Shown: one piece after another, positions 2,130 through 62,293 of the stretch
How positions within the stretch are numbered: position 1 is the stretch's first letter
Layout: every line of letters starts with the position of its first letter
Origin: Siphonodentalium dalli
Taxonomy: Eukaryota > Mollusca > Scaphopoda > Gadilida > Siphonodentaliidae
Assembly: GCA_032622095.1 (NCBI GenBank)
Contig: CP136067.1
Span: 97,268,707 to 97,332,706 of the forward strand
Direction of reading: 5' to 3'
DNA length: 64,000 nucleotides
Translations under genes and position numbers: made by a program
The notes under the pieces: model-generated
The model's database searches: none
Seen by the model: only the letters and a program-made list of their open reading frames with translations
What the model was told of the DNA's origin: nothing

Positions 2130-2217
2130 CAGGGCACGTGAATAGTTCTTTACCAGAATAAAAGCTCGTCTTCGACTCGATGTATTCTGGTAAAGAACTA
2201 TTCGTGTGCTCTAACCC
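2130..2217. repeat. Palindromic hairpin with C-GAA-G apex
   Basis: Left arm 2130-2168 and right arm 2176-2217 are inverted copies; the core GAATAGTTCTTTACCAGAAT is perfect. The turn at 2171-2173 reads C-TTC-G on the plus strand, that is C-GAA-G on the minus strand. It is one of four hairpins in the window with this turn. Confidence 0.8.
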
Positions 2218-25310: not shown

Positions 25311-25322
25311 GAGAGCGTATAC

Positions 25323-25482
25323 ATAAGGATTAACTGTCATGTGGACTGTTTTTATGGAGATGTAACCGTGAGGTAAGTGGACATAACTTGTGTAAAACCC
25401 GAAGGGTTTTACATACAAGATATGACCACTTACCTCACGGTTACATCTCCATAAAAATAGTCTACATGACAGTTAATCCTTA
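25323..25482. repeat. Palindromic hairpin with C-GAA-G apex
   Basis: Arms of about 78-80 bp (25323-25400 and 25403-25482) are inverted copies with about five differences. The inner stem GTAAAACCC closes on GAA (centre at about 25401). It sits between the duplicated upstream block and the 344-bp dispersed repeat, upstream of the intact GPCR. Confidence 0.92.
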
Positions 25483-25490
25483 TATTTATA

Positions 25491-25834
25491 TACATTTAGC
25501 GAAAAAGCCACTTTTGTAAATGTATATAAATCGAAAAGTGTATTGTGACAAGATCAGCCCAAAATACCCAATAGCACCCTTGGCAAAAGTTAATACGAAC
25601 AATTTCTCTTCATATTGAAACCCGATGATGTATTAAGTCAATCCTGCGCGAGTCCAAATGCGCCCAAAACATTACGCGTTCGTCTTTCCAAACCCAATGA
25701 CGTATCGATGGTGTTATGAGCTTGTTGTTATGAGGCGTTGCGCATTCACCGAGAAATAACTGCAACTAGCCACGTGGGCGCCGACCAATCAGAATGCTGG
25801 ATTTAGTGATGACAACACTTAGTGTGTAAATAAA
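25491..25834. repeat. 344-bp dispersed repeat, copy 1
   Basis: From TACATTTAGCGAAAA to GACAACACTTAGTGTGTAAATA. A second copy with only a few differences lies at 49633-49975 in the same orientation. No terminal inverted repeats or coding capacity; a SINE-like or solo terminal sequence is possible. It lies in the upstream region of the intact GPCR and is absent from the paralogous upstream region. Confidence 0.85.
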
Positions 25835-26117: not shown

Positions 26118-27302
26118 ATGAGTTCACCAGTGAACCACACTATAGACTGGAATGGAACAAGAAACGACACATACAACACAACGGTTCCAGCAACATATCG
26201 AGGAGAACTGGGTTATGGCGAGTTAGAGCTGATTCCAGAATTCATGGCTGCATATTACATCACGATTTATTATATGTGGGTCATTGCCGGCATTGGAATA
26301 CCAGGAAATATCCTCTCGATTCTAATTATATGTAAAATGGGACCAATGAGTTCTTCTTCTCTGCACATATGTGTTCTCGCGGTTGCGGACAACCTCGCTA
26401 TATCTGCAAAGATAATTTACTCACAGATGACAATGAACGATGTAAAAATCGGATCGTTCGGATGTAAGTTTCTGATTTTCTCGACACAAATTTGGTCGAT
26501 GTTCGCTAATTGGATCATTGTAGCCATGACGACAGAGAGATACATCGCGGTTTGTTTCCCGTTAAAATCCAGACGGTTCTGTACGAAGACGATCGCAATC
26601 TTCAAGCTCGCGGTGATCTTGTTATTTCTGATTGGGCTCAATTCACACTTTTTCGAGATAATAACAAATACCTATCACCCGGTTCACAGAGAAAATTGTG
26701 ACGCTCATACCGATCCAACAACTCAGTTTTGGGCTAACAAGGTGTGGTATTGGATTGATGGAGCTTTCTTCGCCATAATTCCTTGTGTGATTATCATAGT
26801 GTTAAATGTGATGATCATTGTGGGGTTAAATAAATCTCAAAAACTGAAAAAGCAGATCGCTTCACAGAACGAGAACCAAATCCAGTCCAACGTGGAGCAG
26901 CAACGACATATCATGAATATGCTTCTTGTGGTGTCCATTACATTTGTAATGCTGAATGCACCAAACGCAATTTTCTTTGTAGCGACAACATTCATCGACT
27001 ATGAAGCCACTCTTCAGAGTTATTCTAACTACATTCTAGGGGGAACTATTATCCAACTTTTGTCAAATTTCAATCACTCAGTTAACTTTGTTTTATACTT
27101 CTGGGTTGGGAAGCAGTTCCGTGCAAAATGTATGGAACTCATGTACCGGCGGAGGTGTGGATCACCTACATCGGATCATGCATACCCATGCGTTGGTCGG
27201 GTATCAACAGTGAGCGGCGTATCCGAAAATTGTAATACTGAAATTTCAACGGTCGCTGCTGGAGGAATCCTGGTAATGAAAATAGAAGATAGCCGAATCT
27301 AG
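26118..27302 (+). CDS. Class A G-protein-coupled receptor, peptide-receptor-like
   Basis: Single open frame of 394 residues. The N-terminus has four N-glycosylation sequons (Asn 6, 12, 16, 20). Seven hydrophobic helices: about 46-72 with GN at 63-64, 82-102 with Asp91 in LAVAD, 115-139, 158-178, 211-237, 265-293 with Pro282, and 305-330. Cys116 and Cys194 are placed for the extracellular disulfide. ERY (140-142) replaces DRY. Helix 7 reads NHSVNFVLYF, an NxxNFxxY form in place of NPxxY, common in invertebrate peptide receptors of the FMRFamide-receptor-like group. A basic segment (331-347) follows, then a Ser/Thr-rich tail. It should sit in the plasma membrane and signal through G proteins. 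The ligand cannot be told from sequence. The ATG at 26118 is chosen because it precedes the sequons; the frame is open further upstream. Related copies lie on both sides. Confidence 0.9.
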   Translation: MSSPVNHTIDWNGTRNDTYNTTVPATYRGELGYGELELIPEFMAAYYITIYYMWVIAGIGIPGNILSILIICKMGPMSSSSLHICVLAVADNLAISAKIIYSQMTMNDVKIGSFGCKFLIFSTQIWSMFANWIIVAMTTERYIAVCFPLKSRRFCTKTIAIFKLAVILLFLIGLNSHFFEIITNTYHPVHRENCDAHTDPTTQFWANKVWYWIDGAFFAIIPCVIIIVLNVMIIVGLNKSQKLKKQIASQNENQIQSNVEQQRHIMNMLLVVSITFVMLNAPNAIFFVATTFIDYEATLQSYSNYILGGTIIQLLSNFNHSVNFVLYFWVGKQFRAKCMELMYRRRCGSPTSDHAYPCVGRVSTVSGVSENCNTEISTVAAGGILVMKIEDSRI

Positions 27303-28365: not shown

Positions 28366-28400
28366 AGGGTGGAGACAACGAACACTATAAACAATATACA

Positions 28401-28546
28401 GTTGTCGCCCGTTGTCGAGGGAGACATTGAGATTTGTGACCCGCTAGAGAACGGAATGTCTCCCGAGGAGCGAAGCTCCTCGGGAGACATTCCGTTCTCG
28501 AGCGGGTGTCAAATCTCAATGTCTCCCGAGAAGAAGGGCAACAACT
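28401..28546. repeat. Palindromic hairpin with GCGAAGC apex
   Basis: Arms of about 71 bp (28401-28471 and 28475-28546). The inner part is perfect: CGGAATGTCTCCCGAGGAGC, GAA, then its complement. Outer parts have few mismatches. The heptamer GCGAAGC at the turn is known to form an exceptionally stable DNA mini-hairpin. Overlapping ORFs on both strands are shadows of the palindrome. Confidence 0.93.
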
Positions 28547-28704
28547 GTTTTGTTATCCGATTATACCACAGAAAATAGCCTTGCCATCCACACGCACGAT
28601 GTTGCACTGAGTCATGAGTGCTTTCTTTCCCGATTATGTATATTTTTAGTAACTTTTTATCGTCCCATAGGATTTCTGTTCCATAAACGATAGTCAAGCT
28701 GTTA

Positions 28705-29069
28705 AGCGTTTGATAATCCGCGTTTATTTACGATCATTTTGGTGGTCAAATCGTCAATATCGGTCCGTGCAATGTAAACCAATAAGCCATATAGGTATGT
28801 TCTCGTCTTATTCAAGGCATATTCAATGTCGTCTTGTGAGCGCAATTTACTCGCGATGTTCATTTCATAACGGTCTTCCCCGAAAGCTATTGGGAAGTTG
28901 TCAATTTCATTAATGTACATTCATATGTGTCAGTGCTCATGGCGATCCTCACATAAAATACTTCTATGATCACATTGCAGACATCGCGGATGATAAGTGT
29001 ACAGTACCATTCATTCGCGACAAACGTATGCATTACGTTGTCTACCAGCGAACATTTATAACCAACCAA
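28705..29069 (-). pseudogene. Unrecognised coding-like relic
   Basis: Two minus-strand frames meet: 29069-28887 (60 codons) and 28920-28705 (MYINEIDNFPIAFGED onward, 72 codons). Composition is protein-like, with charged amphipathic stretches such as LRSQDDIEYALNKTRTYLYG, and they would join with one frameshift near 28915. I recognise no family. It may be an old gene or transposon fragment, or chance. Confidence 0.25.
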
Positions 29070-29549
29070 CCTAAAGGGATCCTCTCTTTCAATGTTGCAT
29101 CATAATGTCGACATGAACAAATTGAATCACCGAGATGTTTCGATGTAAAAAAAGTAAATAATAACGCTTGTCCGATAAAAGTATCAACTTAAAACTTAAG
29201 AATATTAGTGTTCACTAAATATATGCAAATTAGCAAACACCACAACTGGTGTGTTTTGCGAATCCGTGGGGTATATAAGATCTATGATTTTTTAGTACGT
29301 TGTAGTGATGCGAAGTAGATGAGTTATTGCAGTGTGTGTTTGGAGATATTCTTGCAATATAACATCAGGCGGGCGACAAAAACAATGTATCCCGGGTCAG
29401 CGGGCGACAGTGTGATTTGTCGCCCGGCACGTGACAGCACATGGGCCAATCAGAAGGGTGGCAAATAGGGAGGAGGATAACAATGATCATGGATCCATAG
29501 GACGGCGGAGGTGGTAGTTATGCGCCTAGGTCACGTACCAGAAACTGGG

Positions 29550-45904: not shown

Positions 45905-46765
45905 TATATAATAAAGCCACTTCATCTTACGTGCATGCATTAAATTTTGTCCTCAGAGACAGGGTTTGTGTTTTTAATTTTTTACTTGGGTGATATCTCG
46001 AAAAATGTTTAGGCACGTATGCTGATTTTTTACTTTTGACCCTTGTTGGGACCCACCCACCCCATCGTCCAAATTGTTTTCCGCTTTCGGCAGTTTTTTC
46101 CGACCATTTTTGGACACCCACCCCCTTTTAGCACTAAAACAGAGATTTGCGCACGGGGGTGGAAATAAAGTTTTTTTCCGGGCACATATGCCAGGGTGGG
46201 TGGGTGGTCGATAGGACCAACAAATTTTTTTTTCCGCAACTCAAAAATATTATACAAACAGTATAGCCTGTAGCCCATGCTAATGGATTGAATTTTGAAA
46301 TCCAAGATGGCTGCTGGCAGCCATGTCTTTTTTGACCGAATGACCCCCAAAATGACTCGTTCCTATTTACATGTCAATGTTAACATCCATGACTAATAGT
46401 GTGCACTGAAATTCATATACAGCTGTTTACAGTGAATTTCCCCCCGCAAATTTCTGTTTTAGTGTTAAAAGGGGGTGGGTGTCCAAAAATGGTCGGAAAA
46501 AACTGCCGAAATTGAAAAAAAAATGGACGCGGGGGTGGGTGGGTCACAACAAGGGTCGAAATTCAAAAATCAGCATACGTGCCTGCAAATATTTTCCGAC
46601 TCCCCCTGACTTGCGGGGGGGGGAATTCACTGTAAACAGCTGTATATGAATTTCTGTGCATACTATTTGTGATGGATTGTATATACCATTCTGTACTATA
46701 CTATAGTCTGGGGCATATAACAAAAATGGCCGCCATGACAGACGCCATTTTTTCTGGAGTCTGAA
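45905..46765. repeat. Dispersed repeat R, copy 2, right part, with a nested foldback
   Basis: The start (45910-45990) and end (46690-46765) match 39640-39720 and 39905-39980. In between, 45996-46158 and 46442-46601 are inverted copies (AGGCACGTATGCTGATTTTT against its complement; TTTTTGGACACCCACCCCC against its complement). 46376-46446 and 46615-46690 are a second inverted pair (TTCATATACAGCTGTTTACA). ORFs here on the minus strand (106 and 79 codons) are shadows of these arms. Confidence 0.75.
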
Positions 46766-54870: not shown

Positions 54871-55557
54871 TGTTTAAACAATTCATTCATGAGAGCTACG
54901 AACAATGTCCTAATTATATGCACACACGTGCAGTGAATAATTTACTCATTGAAAATGGAAACAAATGGAAAGTCTCGGTCAAAGATCGGACGTGATGTTC
55001 GTAGTTATCCATCCTTAAATTAAAAATTCCCCTACATGGGAATCAAAGACCCGCTAAGGGACTAAAATTTTAATTCCTGTACTTTGACGATATGTGACTG
55101 CCAGAACGCTTGAAATATTGGCTTATAATTATACCCACTTCATTTTCTATAGTAAATAGCCGTTGAGTTTATCAAAGCTAATGTAATTATATCGGATAAT
55201 TACATTAGGTCGAGATTTTATCAGTGCAACAAAAACGACCCAAAAGTACTTGCGCGCAATGATATTTGTAGTCCGTTGCATAGTAACTAAGGACGCTATT
55301 TTGTTCGCACTCGCTTCGCAGTACACATTTTTTTTCACGAACGCTATGAAAGCTAATAAAAGAATAATAAATAACTATCCAAATAAAGACAATGCCCCAA
55401 TATAATAAACATTCCCAAGCTGTTTACAGAGTGTAAATTTGGTCGTATTTGCGACGTTTCGTTACGAAATGCATGACTAAACATACACAACTTTTTAGTT
55501 TTCGTTTCATTTATAATTTTATTTACATTTTCCCAGCAGGCACCACTTGTCATTTTG

Positions 55558-55703
55558 TAAGACCACAGGAGTGTGGAACTTGATTAATAATTGCATTAAT
55601 TAGCCTAATTACCATTTTTTTGGCCATAATGATGGGCCAAAAAAAATGCTAATTAGCATAATTGAGGCAGTTATTGATCAAGTTCCAAGTTCCTGTGGTA
55701 AGA
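55558..55703. repeat. Foldback hairpin, about 68-bp arms
   Basis: ACCACAGGA and TGGAACTTGAT in the left arm (55559-55626) and GGGCCAAAAAAA, ATCAAGTTCCA, TCCTGTGGT in the right (55634-55703) are inverted copies. The 8-bp loop is unlike the GAA-loop hairpins. Confidence 0.85.
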
Positions 55704-56610: not shown

Positions 56611-57177
56611 TACGTGTCTGAATTATCTGGACACAAGCGATTTAATAATCACTTTAAATTTGACCAAATAAATTAGTTTTGGAAAAATAAATCATCTTAA
56701 AATTCCTTAAATGCCATGATGATTTAATTCTTCTGAAAACTTGTTTCTCGGTAAAATCACAATGACCTGATGACAAAAAATGACTGCGAAAAATCGAAAA
56801 TTTAAAAGTATTTGGCTCACTGCCGATAGATAGGAGGATTCCTGTAAGAAAATTCTCACTAAACTTTTTGATTATCGCATGTTCATGATTCCCAGTTGAC
56901 ATGGAGACTAACTGTATATTTTCCTCTTCCAAAATTCTGCTAATAATGTTTAATTTTGATCAAAAGTTTATTAATGTTTTGTTTCGTCCCTGACATACGT
57001 TCGGGAAAAACCCACTCGATCTGCAGATCGATCGATATTATTCGGACGGGAATGCAGCGAGTTGTTTTCGGCTCAAGTCTTGTCTGTTATTTGAGAACAT
57101 ATAGTTCCTTGTTTCAATCGTATTTTAAGGGCGAATATGTCTTTAAAATCAATATTTAACAATCGATGGCATAATTA

Positions 57178-57332
57178 TAAGGAATAATCTCGGTTTCCTA
57201 ATGTAATTACACAGTCTAACGGCATATGCTGAATCACAAACTCTTATAAATCGCTTCGCGATTTATAGGTTTGTGATTCCGCATATGCCTTTAGACTGTG
57301 TAATTACATTAGGAAACCGAGATTATTCCTTA
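57178..57332. repeat. Palindromic hairpin with GCGAAGC apex
   Basis: Arms of about 76 bp. The outer 40 bp (TAAGGAATAATCTCGG to ACACAGTCTA) is perfectly inverted. The apex reads GCTTCGC on the plus strand (57252-57258), GCGAAGC on the minus. Confidence 0.93.
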
Positions 57333-60640: not shown

Positions 60641-62293
60641 GTGTTTTGGGACTCTTTGCTGGAAAAATTTGTCAAATATAATGATAAAGATCCACAAATT
60701 TGTGTTCAGAATAGTGACACTATATTTGACCAGCAGGTTCCTGCAGATTCAACTTCCACTTCAAGTTCAAGCTCACTACTGAATTCAGCCTCAGCCTCAG
60801 CTGCATTGCCAATATTGCCATTGCCTTCAACTTCCACTGTAAATTCCAGATTTACAAATGTAACTGATGAGGATGTGTCTCAATTCAATGACCAACAAAG
60901 AAATATAAATACTGTTAAAAAAACTGAATATGATATTAAACTCTTTAGAACATTTCTACTAAGTAAAGATGAAAAGAGACAGCCCGAGTTCATTCCCCCA
61001 GATGTTCTGTGTGGGCATATATCAAGTTTCCTCCTATCTGTGCGGAAGAAAGATGGAACTGAATATGAGCCAGTGTCACTTCGAGCGTTCATGTCCTCAC
61101 TTGATCGATACCTCAGGATGCGATCATATCCAGTTTCTGTCATAAGTAATCATCAGTTTTCATCATGCCGTGAAACTCTGAAAAGCAAACAGAAACAACT
61201 GAAATGTATAGGAAAGGGCAATAAGCCATTTGAAACAGGTCCGATTATTCAAGATGATGTTGAACGATTTTATGGGGCGCAAGTTCTTGGACCATATAAC
61301 CAAAAGTCGTTACAAAATTCTATGTGGTGGACTTGTGTTTTGTATTTCGGAAGGAGAACAGGGGAGGAAACTCATTCTTTGAAATGGGGCGATATCAGTC
61401 TGCAAGAAGATAATTATGGACAGGACTATATCATTTACACACAAGAGCGACAAACAAAGACAAGAAACGGTGAAAATCCACGAGACATCAGAATAATTAA
61501 ACCAAGGGCATATTCGGCCGACAACCCAGAGAGAGACCCGGTTAAATTATATCGATTGTTCAGCGAGAAGCAACCAGAAGATGAAAAAGATCCATACAGT
61601 CCGTTCTTCCTCTCCGTCAATTACCAGGGCTGGAATAAAGGCAAGCCTTGGTATAAACGGAATGCATTAGGCATTAATTCTTTAAATATAATTGTGCAGG
61701 GCATGTGTGTAGACTCAGGCCTCACAACGGATAAGCGACTTACCAACTATAGTGTTCGAAAACTGCTGGTCCAGTCACTTAACGATGAAAATGTACCACC
61801 GCATCAGATAATCCAGGTGTCAGGACGCAAGAATTTAAACAGTTTGTTGAACTACTCCAAAATGAATGCTGTCCAAACAAAACATATTTCTTCAATTGTA
61901 TCAAATACTGCTGGCAATAACACAGTCACAGAGCCAGATACAAAACTCCCAGCTACACAGCCTGCAGTGGAGCTTTCACCAGTATTGGAAACTGCACCTG
62001 CTCATGTACGAAGTTCTGACACTATTTCAATATCATCACCGACACATGTAACTGTTACCAAATCGACAGTTAGTGTATCAAATAGTGACCTTATTGATAC
62101 ACCTGGAGTTGTGAGTTCATCAAGTGCGATGCAAAGTTTGAAATCCATTTTCTCAAACGCAACTTTCAGTGGATCGGTGTACATGCACTTCCACAGCTGC
62201 TCACCGAAGCATCATATCACAGATGACACAGAGTCTAGTCCTATCGTGAAATACCGGCGAATCAGGAGAATAGTTGACAGTGACAGCGAGTGA
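60641..62293 (+). CDS. Crypton-derived tyrosine-recombinase-like protein (DUF3504 type)
   Basis: 550 residues plus stop. Residues 35-70 are Ser/Ala-rich. From 91 (TVKKTEYDIKLFRTFLL) to about 422 it follows the Crypton-derived recombinase fold found in KIAA1958-, ZMYM- and QRICH1-like animal proteins: a core-binding region (KSKQKQLKCIGKGNKP at 181-196), then the catalytic region with GRRTGEETHSLKWGDI (Arg 238/239), QTKTR (Lys 273), NYSVRK (Tyr370, Arg373), SGRKN (Arg396) and NYSK (Tyr405). Relatives usually have His at 370 and 396, so active-site residues are altered and DNA cleavage is doubtful; a DNA-binding nuclear role is inferred. The tail ends with basic KYRRIRR then acidic DSDSE. The codon at 60641 is GTG; the frame is open back to 60602 and the first ATG is at residue 151, so an upstream exon is likely. 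A GTGAGT donor at 60535 and an AG at 60609-60610 are in matching phase. Confidence 0.85.
   Translation: MFWDSLLEKFVKYNDKDPQICVQNSDTIFDQQVPADSTSTSSSSSLLNSASASAALPILPLPSTSTVNSRFTNVTDEDVSQFNDQQRNINTVKKTEYDIKLFRTFLLSKDEKRQPEFIPPDVLCGHISSFLLSVRKKDGTEYEPVSLRAFMSSLDRYLRMRSYPVSVISNHQFSSCRETLKSKQKQLKCIGKGNKPFETGPIIQDDVERFYGAQVLGPYNQKSLQNSMWWTCVLYFGRRTGEETHSLKWGDISLQEDNYGQDYIIYTQERQTKTRNGENPRDIRIIKPRAYSADNPERDPVKLYRLFSEKQPEDEKDPYSPFFLSVNYQGWNKGKPWYKRNALGINSLNIIVQGMCVDSGLTTDKRLTNYSVRKLLVQSLNDENVPPHQIIQVSGRKNLNSLLNYSKMNAVQTKHISSIVSNTAGNNTVTEPDTKLPATQPAVELSPVLETAPAHVRSSDTISISSPTHVTVTKSTVSVSNSDLIDTPGVVSSSSAMQSLKSIFSNATFSGSVYMHFHSCSPKHHITDDTESSPIVKYRRIRRIVDSDSE

Follow-up and report, generated by a model that had tools for sequence, protein, structure and literature searches.

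The window, a 64,000-nt stretch of the genome of the scaphopod Siphonodentalium dalli, contains a rhodopsin-type GPCR frame (26118-27302), a long open frame (60641-62293) carrying a DUF3504 domain, which we take to be Crypton-derived, and several large hairpins (Table 1). It also holds, at 46385-46677, a 61-nt inverted repeat with a 171-nt spacer, to which a stretch at 45998-46151 and one in locus L051 are related. Comparison of the whole window with Rfam gave no match at the gathering score. An earlier note on this DNA had described four hairpins with unrelated arms that all turn on C-GAA-G. Such a turn, a 3-nt loop closed by C-G, is indeed found at 25.3, 28.4 and 57.2 kb, and the full GCGAAGC that had been reported for two of the hairpins is present in those at 28.4 and 57.2 kb; d(GCGAAGC) is known to form a mini-hairpin of extra stability. 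The fourth case, 2130-2217, is weak, its C-GAA-G being a 3-bp stem inside an imperfect 22-nt centre that is paired otherwise, with a 4-nt loop, in the predicted fold.

Table 1. Hairpins, elements and end repeats in the window (positions are those of the window; loops in square brackets).
Feature	Position	Strand	Remarks
Stand-alone hairpin repeat, ~0.1 kb	2124-2230, around 2130-2217		weak centre GTC-GAA-GAC on the - strand, 2168-2176
Family 2 hairpin	25318-25488	+	CCC[GAA]GGG; apex CCCGAAGGG, 25398-25406; terminal hairpin 25323-25483
Family 2 element, ~0.51 kb	25326-25834	+	AGGATTAAC ... GTGTGTAAATAAA; 30 fetched copies; left end +/-1 base
Family 2 foot repeat, TATATTTATATAC	25481-25493	+	imperfect inverted copy of far terminus
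Family 1 element, ~1.09 kb	28395-29483	+	TATACAG ... GGATAACAA; 30 fetched copies align between the ends
Family 1 hairpin, 74-nt arms	28398-28548	+	GGAGC[GAA]GCTCC; apex GCGAAGC, 28470-28476
Family 1 foot repeat, TTGTTATCC	28550-28558	+	inverted copy of GGATAACAA (29475-29483)
Family 1 stem copies, including second small hairpin CGGGCGACA...TGTCGCCCG	29383-29426	+	before far terminus
Family 3 element, ~2.2 kb	55125 (or 55126)-57330	-	hairpin end 57330, far end 55125
Family 3 second hairpin, CCTAATGTAATTA...TAATTACATTAG	55178-55209	-	12-13 nt in common with main hairpin stem
Internal hairpin of family 3 (contrast case of the earlier note)	55558-55703		turn other than GAA; mapped in family 3 at 55562-55699
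Family 3 foot repeat, ATAATTATGCC	57168-57178	-	inverted copy of GGGTATAATTAT (55125-55136)
Family 3 hairpin	57178-57332	-	TCGC[GAA]GCGA; apex GCGAAGC, 57253-57259

Two simple accounts of the turn were rejected. The first was chance. Triloop palindromes whose arms match exactly over 4 bp or more numbered 586 in 114 kb of DNA (the window and five 10-kb stretches drawn at random), and 7 of them turn on C-GAA-G; when exact arms of 7 bp or more were required, 18 remained, 3 of them with this turn. The long hairpins at 25.3, 28.4 and 57.2 kb satisfy the stricter rule and are therefore those three, and by this comparison of arm lengths a chance origin of their turn was dismissed. The second was a difference in stability between the two strands, for which the energy model gave no indication, the GAA strand and the TTC strand being equally stable under the DNA parameters used.

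Copies were sought in the 2.23-Gb assembly (9 contigs), where only the best 40 of the 740 to 1587 candidate places per hairpin were scored, so that what follows concerns the most similar copies. The three long hairpins belong to distinct, non-coding families of about 1.1, 0.5 and 2.2 kb, numbered here as family 1 (28.4 kb), family 2 (25.3 kb) and family 3 (57.2 kb), whose hairpins gave 1587, 829 and 1073 candidate places, the best 40 of each scoring 96-100%, 97-100% and 96-100% identity, respectively. In family 1, where no coding frame was recognised, similarity among 30 copies starts at TATACAG beside the hairpin, runs for ~1.09 kb in most of them and stops at GGATAACAA; two or three of the 30 have no recognisable far end. 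The far end of family 2 reads GTATGTAAATATA in most copies, compared with GTGTGTAAATAAA in the window. For family 3, the hairpin end was taken from 12 fetched copies and the far end from three long copies together with the window. A 5S-rRNA-like stretch suspected within this family was dropped, as the only Rfam matches were below the gathering score (11 of 13 to microRNA models and 2 of 13 to bacterial small RNAs). The hairpin at 55558-55703, which the earlier note had set apart as a useful contrast lacking the GAA turn, does have a different loop; as an internal part of the family 3 element at 57 kb, lying within its span and present wherever another family 3 locus extends that far, it does not serve as a contrast. 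The repeat around 2130 gave 1149 candidates, and its 39 other scored copies match over only ~0.1 kb (query positions 15-121 at most) at 90-94%.

A fourth family came from a hairpin scan of the fetched DNA, which disclosed GGCC[GAA]GGCC in the flank of a family 1 copy (locus L003). Family 4 was not picked for its layout and is thus an independent case. It has 740 candidate places; the 39 other scored copies are 91-94% identical and align from just outside the hairpin into the body, where 27 of the 39 alignments stop after 34-37 nt. The sequence at its hairpin foot, GTTGTTACCCAATA, recurs inverted as TATTGGGTAACAA where the family 1 copy inserted, and the far end of family 4 is known from one copy, interrupted exactly where family 1 sits.

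Three of the family 1 copies lie close together on contig C7, at 97297096 (L001, the window copy), 97350571 (L006) and 97384942 (L005), 53 and 34 kb apart, and have identical flanks. Locus L005 also holds a GPCR frame like that of the window, and the arrangement suggests that the GPCR region was duplicated locally along with its family 1 insertion.

The four families have their end layout in common. Each carries, on one side, a terminal hairpin with arms of about 70-85 bp and a C-GAA-G turn, and in every one of them the loop reads GAA and not TTC when the hairpin is placed on the left. Directly next to the hairpin foot, on its inner side, the sequence of the opposite terminus is repeated in inverted form over 9, 8, 8 and 12 nt in families 1 to 4, the match lying 0 nt from the far end. 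Shuffled sequences often give an 8-9-nt match at some place between two stretches of this kind; what carries weight is the repeated position. The family 3 repeat is self-palindromic, and family 4, with its far end from one copy, is not fully counted in this rule. In families 1, 3 and 4, in addition, a stretch of 12-13 nt from the stem appears again 53-110 nt short of the far end, a recurrence that at a length of at least 12 nt was seen in 0, 2 and 0 of 200 shuffles, respectively; it was not found near the far end of family 2. In families 1 to 3 the hairpin stands at one end only, and there are no terminal inverted repeats spanning the element.

Hairpins were clustered in 363.8 kb of DNA, partly overlapping and partly picked for carrying these repeats. 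The 124 hairpins found there fell into 12 clusters, of which four, corresponding to families 1 to 4, have the GAA turn and eight have other turns (ATA, TGG, ATT, GGC, TGCA and others); one of the eight is, by its sequence, formed by two facing family 2 copies. The arms of the GAA hairpins form no shared cluster in this sample, which bears out the claim of a common apex on unrelated arms and led us to reject a single repeat family with a conserved centre. The earlier note had called for a genome-wide scan of loops; in our sample, leaving aside the weak apex at 2130, a hairpin that lies below the filter of the cluster scan, GAA occurred only in the four clusters with the end layout. Of the 124 hairpins, 29 are of a 68-bp type, GCCAATGCATT..., that turns on ATA/TAT and is present at L061:1390-1615 and numerous further loci, often as facing pairs with CCCTGT/ACAGGG on their flanks.

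Within families, the CGAAG apex was present in 30 of 30, 30 of 30 and 12 of 12 fetched copies of families 1 to 3. This constancy is weak evidence, because the fetched copies are less than 1% diverged outside the apex (23 of 2940, 31 of 4440 and 5 of 1728 sites), and its use as proof of selection was dropped. An older family 1 copy in locus L063 has the apex GAT, and an older family 2 copy in locus L043 has lost the apex. In the stem of family 1, GA faces GA at the positions corresponding to 28465-28466 and 28480-28481 in 22 of 30 fetched copies, while the window copy and four others are perfectly paired there; tandem G-A mismatches of the GA/GA form are stable. Each family 1 arm, moreover, is a palindrome within the palindrome, holding an 11-nt inverted repeat, in part GGGAGACATTG ... 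AATGTCTCCCG (left arm, 28419-28465).

The insertion sites of families 1 and 2 were studied by joining the two flanks of each of 56 copies and comparing them with the collected DNA. In two cases a family 1 element has inserted into another member of its family, and the empty site of each can be seen in more than 20 copies. In these sites, AACAT/ACCTATATG and GACAA/ATCACACTGTC (the slash marks the junction), nothing was lost and nothing duplicated; the second is the loop of family 1's own second hairpin. For a few further family 1 pairs, alignments to diverged repeats continue through the junction at ~76-83%, with one row gapped there. Family 2 yielded no clean empty site, its best candidate matching at 80% with an uncertainty of +/-1 base. 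Family 1 thus inserts without target duplication. Two family 1 copies stand head to tail in locus L026.

The flank beside the hairpin is restricted in sequence in each family: AACAA or AACAT in 20 of 28 sites for family 1, ACATA in 22 and ATATA in 8 of 33 sites for family 2, and AATTA in 11 of 12 sites for family 3. When all 1024 pentamers were ranked under the target profile of each family, the family's own terminal pentamer ranked 1, 2 and 1 (families 1 to 3), with the register set by one base for families 2 and 3 and a rank of 107 for family 3 in the other register; under the profiles of the other families, the ranks were 17 to 458. In families 1 to 3, the element thus comes to lie next to a copy of its own terminal pentamer. 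Beyond the far end of family 1, the flank holds in addition a half-site in inverted orientation, at positions +8 to +11 (T 20, G 18, T 17 and C 12 of 25).

Machinery for rolling-circle transposition is present in the genome. A profile search gave 151 matches to Helitron_like_N (PF14214), those listed lying above the curated cut-off, and 44 of the listed matches are in open frames of at least 1000 aa (two with one internal stop); none of 14 control genomes had a match. Two of the matches, at 141795020 and 141803591 on contig C2, lie in 1650-aa frames on one strand with equal score. A distance of 8,571 bp separates the two, in what looks like a head-to-tail arrangement, and there are further close pairs. 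The machinery is without a link to the present ends: no copy among the 82 listed (family 1, 40; family 2, 30; family 3, 12) has any of the 44 listed places less than 260 kb away, a result that says little because only the best 40 copies of each family were listed, and a Pfam run on 10 of the 47 long frames of the examined DNA gave no Rep or recombinase domain. Y1_Tnp (PF01797), for which 5 of 14 control genomes had matches, had none in this genome, and a transposase of the IS200/IS605 type was rejected on that ground.

We consider it probable that the three large GAA hairpins are the termini of non-autonomous Helitron2/Helentron-like elements, that is, of rolling-circle elements of the Rep-helicase (RepHel) kind. 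The GAA turn that they share seems to belong to the way in which such elements move, and not to be left over from separate copying accidents. The earlier note had inferred a common mechanism as opposed to a common transposon family; its common cause does appear to exist, while three of its four hairpins are the same kind of transposon end. The families are Helitron2-like in appearance and in working, and we do not file them as proven members, since the RepHel partner is unlinked and the hairpin size and the target differ.

As an example of a common mechanism, the earlier note had named copying that turns at a GAA mini-hairpin on a single strand. In such snap-back copying, a C-GAA-G mini-hairpin would have primed synthesis and the neighbouring DNA would have been doubled into a long palindrome, with the common apex as its scar. 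It would agree with an apex that is common while the arms are unrelated, and with the inverted repeat within each family 1 arm (left positions 25-35 and 61-71), which looks as if doubled twice; furthermore, short Helitron2 hairpins already carry C-GAA-G in the accessible part of a published description (PMC5148889). At the present loci, however, every hairpin was inherited as part of a family that has many close copies, so that no copying event that turned at GAA is needed, and local snap-back copying there is not supported. In four of four families, moreover, the loop has the same strand with respect to the element, a constancy that free snap-back would not call for. What survives is a single event at the birth of each family, acting on a short hairpin of the Helitron2 type, which we hold to be unlikely; that snap-back produced the founder hairpin of each family is a guess.

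Another explanation is a Crypton-type tyrosine-recombinase element, whose circle recombines at a short core and whose ends are short direct repeats of the target. This could explain why the terminal pentamer equals the target, with short direct repeats at the termini and no duplication in family 1, and why the family 1 target is an interrupted palindrome (AACAW-n7-TGTC-like), and a DUF3504 frame lies in the window itself. Exchange of two strands would nevertheless mix the junction, whereas the hairpin-side junction keeps the element's own 7 nt, TATACAG, in 30 of 30 distinct family 1 ends (27 from loci found by a query containing those nucleotides and 3 from loci found without them). In addition, the hairpin, the foot repeat and the recurring stem are traits of Helitron2 (PMC5148889; PMC3627910), and the consulted passages on Cryptons describe none of them there. 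An origin of this kind seems quite improbable to us. Finally, ordinary cut-and-paste (DDE) MITEs with palindromic structure are a very remote prospect: the sample does contain MITE-like palindromic repeats, with TA at both ends of one and an 8-nt flanking duplication around another (L045 and L063, judged by eye), but those clusters are without the GAA turn, the ends of families 1 to 3 are one-sided with no element-spanning terminal inverted repeats, and the empty sites of family 1 are without duplication.

If the ends are of the Helitron2 type, their movement could take the following course. A RepHel protein supplied in trans would nick each end of the element, and the target as well, at the terminal pentamer; the element would travel as a single strand, probably circular, and the hairpin and its foot repeat would mark where copying starts or stops. 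The hairpin as the 3' end of the element fits the foot repeat, and the hairpin as the 5' end fits the flank motif beside it. The C-GAA-G turn may be kept for the ready folding of one strand, and so be strand-selective, or for contact with a protein; on either account the apex would be shared while the arms were free to differ. A bolder proposal is that these families represent an animal rolling-circle lineage in which a giant hairpin is locked by the strand-fixed C-GAA-G turn, in which the foot sequence pairs with the opposite terminus, and in which the insertion site is self-programmed, a eukaryotic analogue of the IS200/IS605 guide that is run by RepHel in place of a Y1 transposase. As the target matches the element's own terminus, each family would program its insertion site by base pairing. 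We put this forward as a tentative and rather doubtful extension of the Helitron2-like reading. The end recognition and target choice of Helitron-like transposons are still poorly understood. The young families described here, which share little but the loop, the foot repeat and the terminus-target rule, are natural variants in which a GAA mini-hairpin on one strand as a signal for recognition or strand choice, and the choice of target by base pairing, can be tested.

Parallels to these families exist in several known systems. The resemblance to bacterial IS200/IS605 elements lies in working only and is a functional analogy: according to the consulted portion of one account, these have an end hairpin, at whose foot a short guide pairs with the cleavage site, and a target identical to the flank, a scheme that the present hairpin and foot repeat recall, but their guide lies 5' of the foot and they use a Y1 transposase, for which this genome has no match (PMC6006769). 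HINE and DINE-1 elements, in the parts of two papers at hand, are closer, being non-coding and of high copy number, with subterminal inverted repeats of 11-15 bp, a palindrome at one end and no modification of the target (PMC4067079; PMC7492417); for HINEs the repeats are given as 12-15 bp (PMC4067079). The present families are likewise non-coding and of high copy number, with inverted repeats and a palindrome at one end; they differ in having stems of at least 70 bp, as opposed to a palindrome of 5-10 bp, and in targets other than TT or T-rich sequence.

For Helitron2 as described by Bao and Jurka (PMC3627910, in its accessible part), an asymmetric terminal inverted repeat is typical, with one copy at the terminus and the other just inside the opposite hairpin, and there is usually no target duplication; these repeats were suggested to define the end of the element. 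The families studied here match this arrangement of repeats, and family 1 also the lack of duplication. The inner copy lies 20-30 bp from the end in Helitron2 and about 150-175 bp from it here, a distance due to the giant hairpin, and the Helitron2 target, TTTT/T or C, differs from AACAW, ACATA and AATTA, which are not of the T type; members from Fusarium deviate from that target too. A literature search, outside which most subscription papers fall, gave no description of giant Helitron end hairpins or of the rule that the terminus equals the target.

The closest counterparts are FoHeli1 and FoHeli2, Helitron2 elements of Fusarium oxysporum, for which the accessible text of one paper describes C-GAA-G end hairpins on two different stems, a stem repeated in inverted form before the other end, no target duplication and evidence of joined ends (PMC5148889). 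The C-GAA-G end hairpin on differing stems is thus common to these elements and our families, as is the recurrence of the stem near the other end, except in family 2. The fungal stems are ~5 bp long and the elements encode RepHel, while the present hairpins measure at least 70 bp and belong to non-coding elements; the fungal target is TNAT/A (TNAT/T in a figure legend), as against AACAW, ACATA and AATTA; and no rule equating terminus and target is described for FoHeli1 or FoHeli2 in that part of the paper (PMC5148889). The C-GAA-G turn on different stems is therefore already published for Helitron2, without remark on it in the same accessible text, and its occurrence in two fungal elements as well as in a mollusc makes its role testable across kingdoms.
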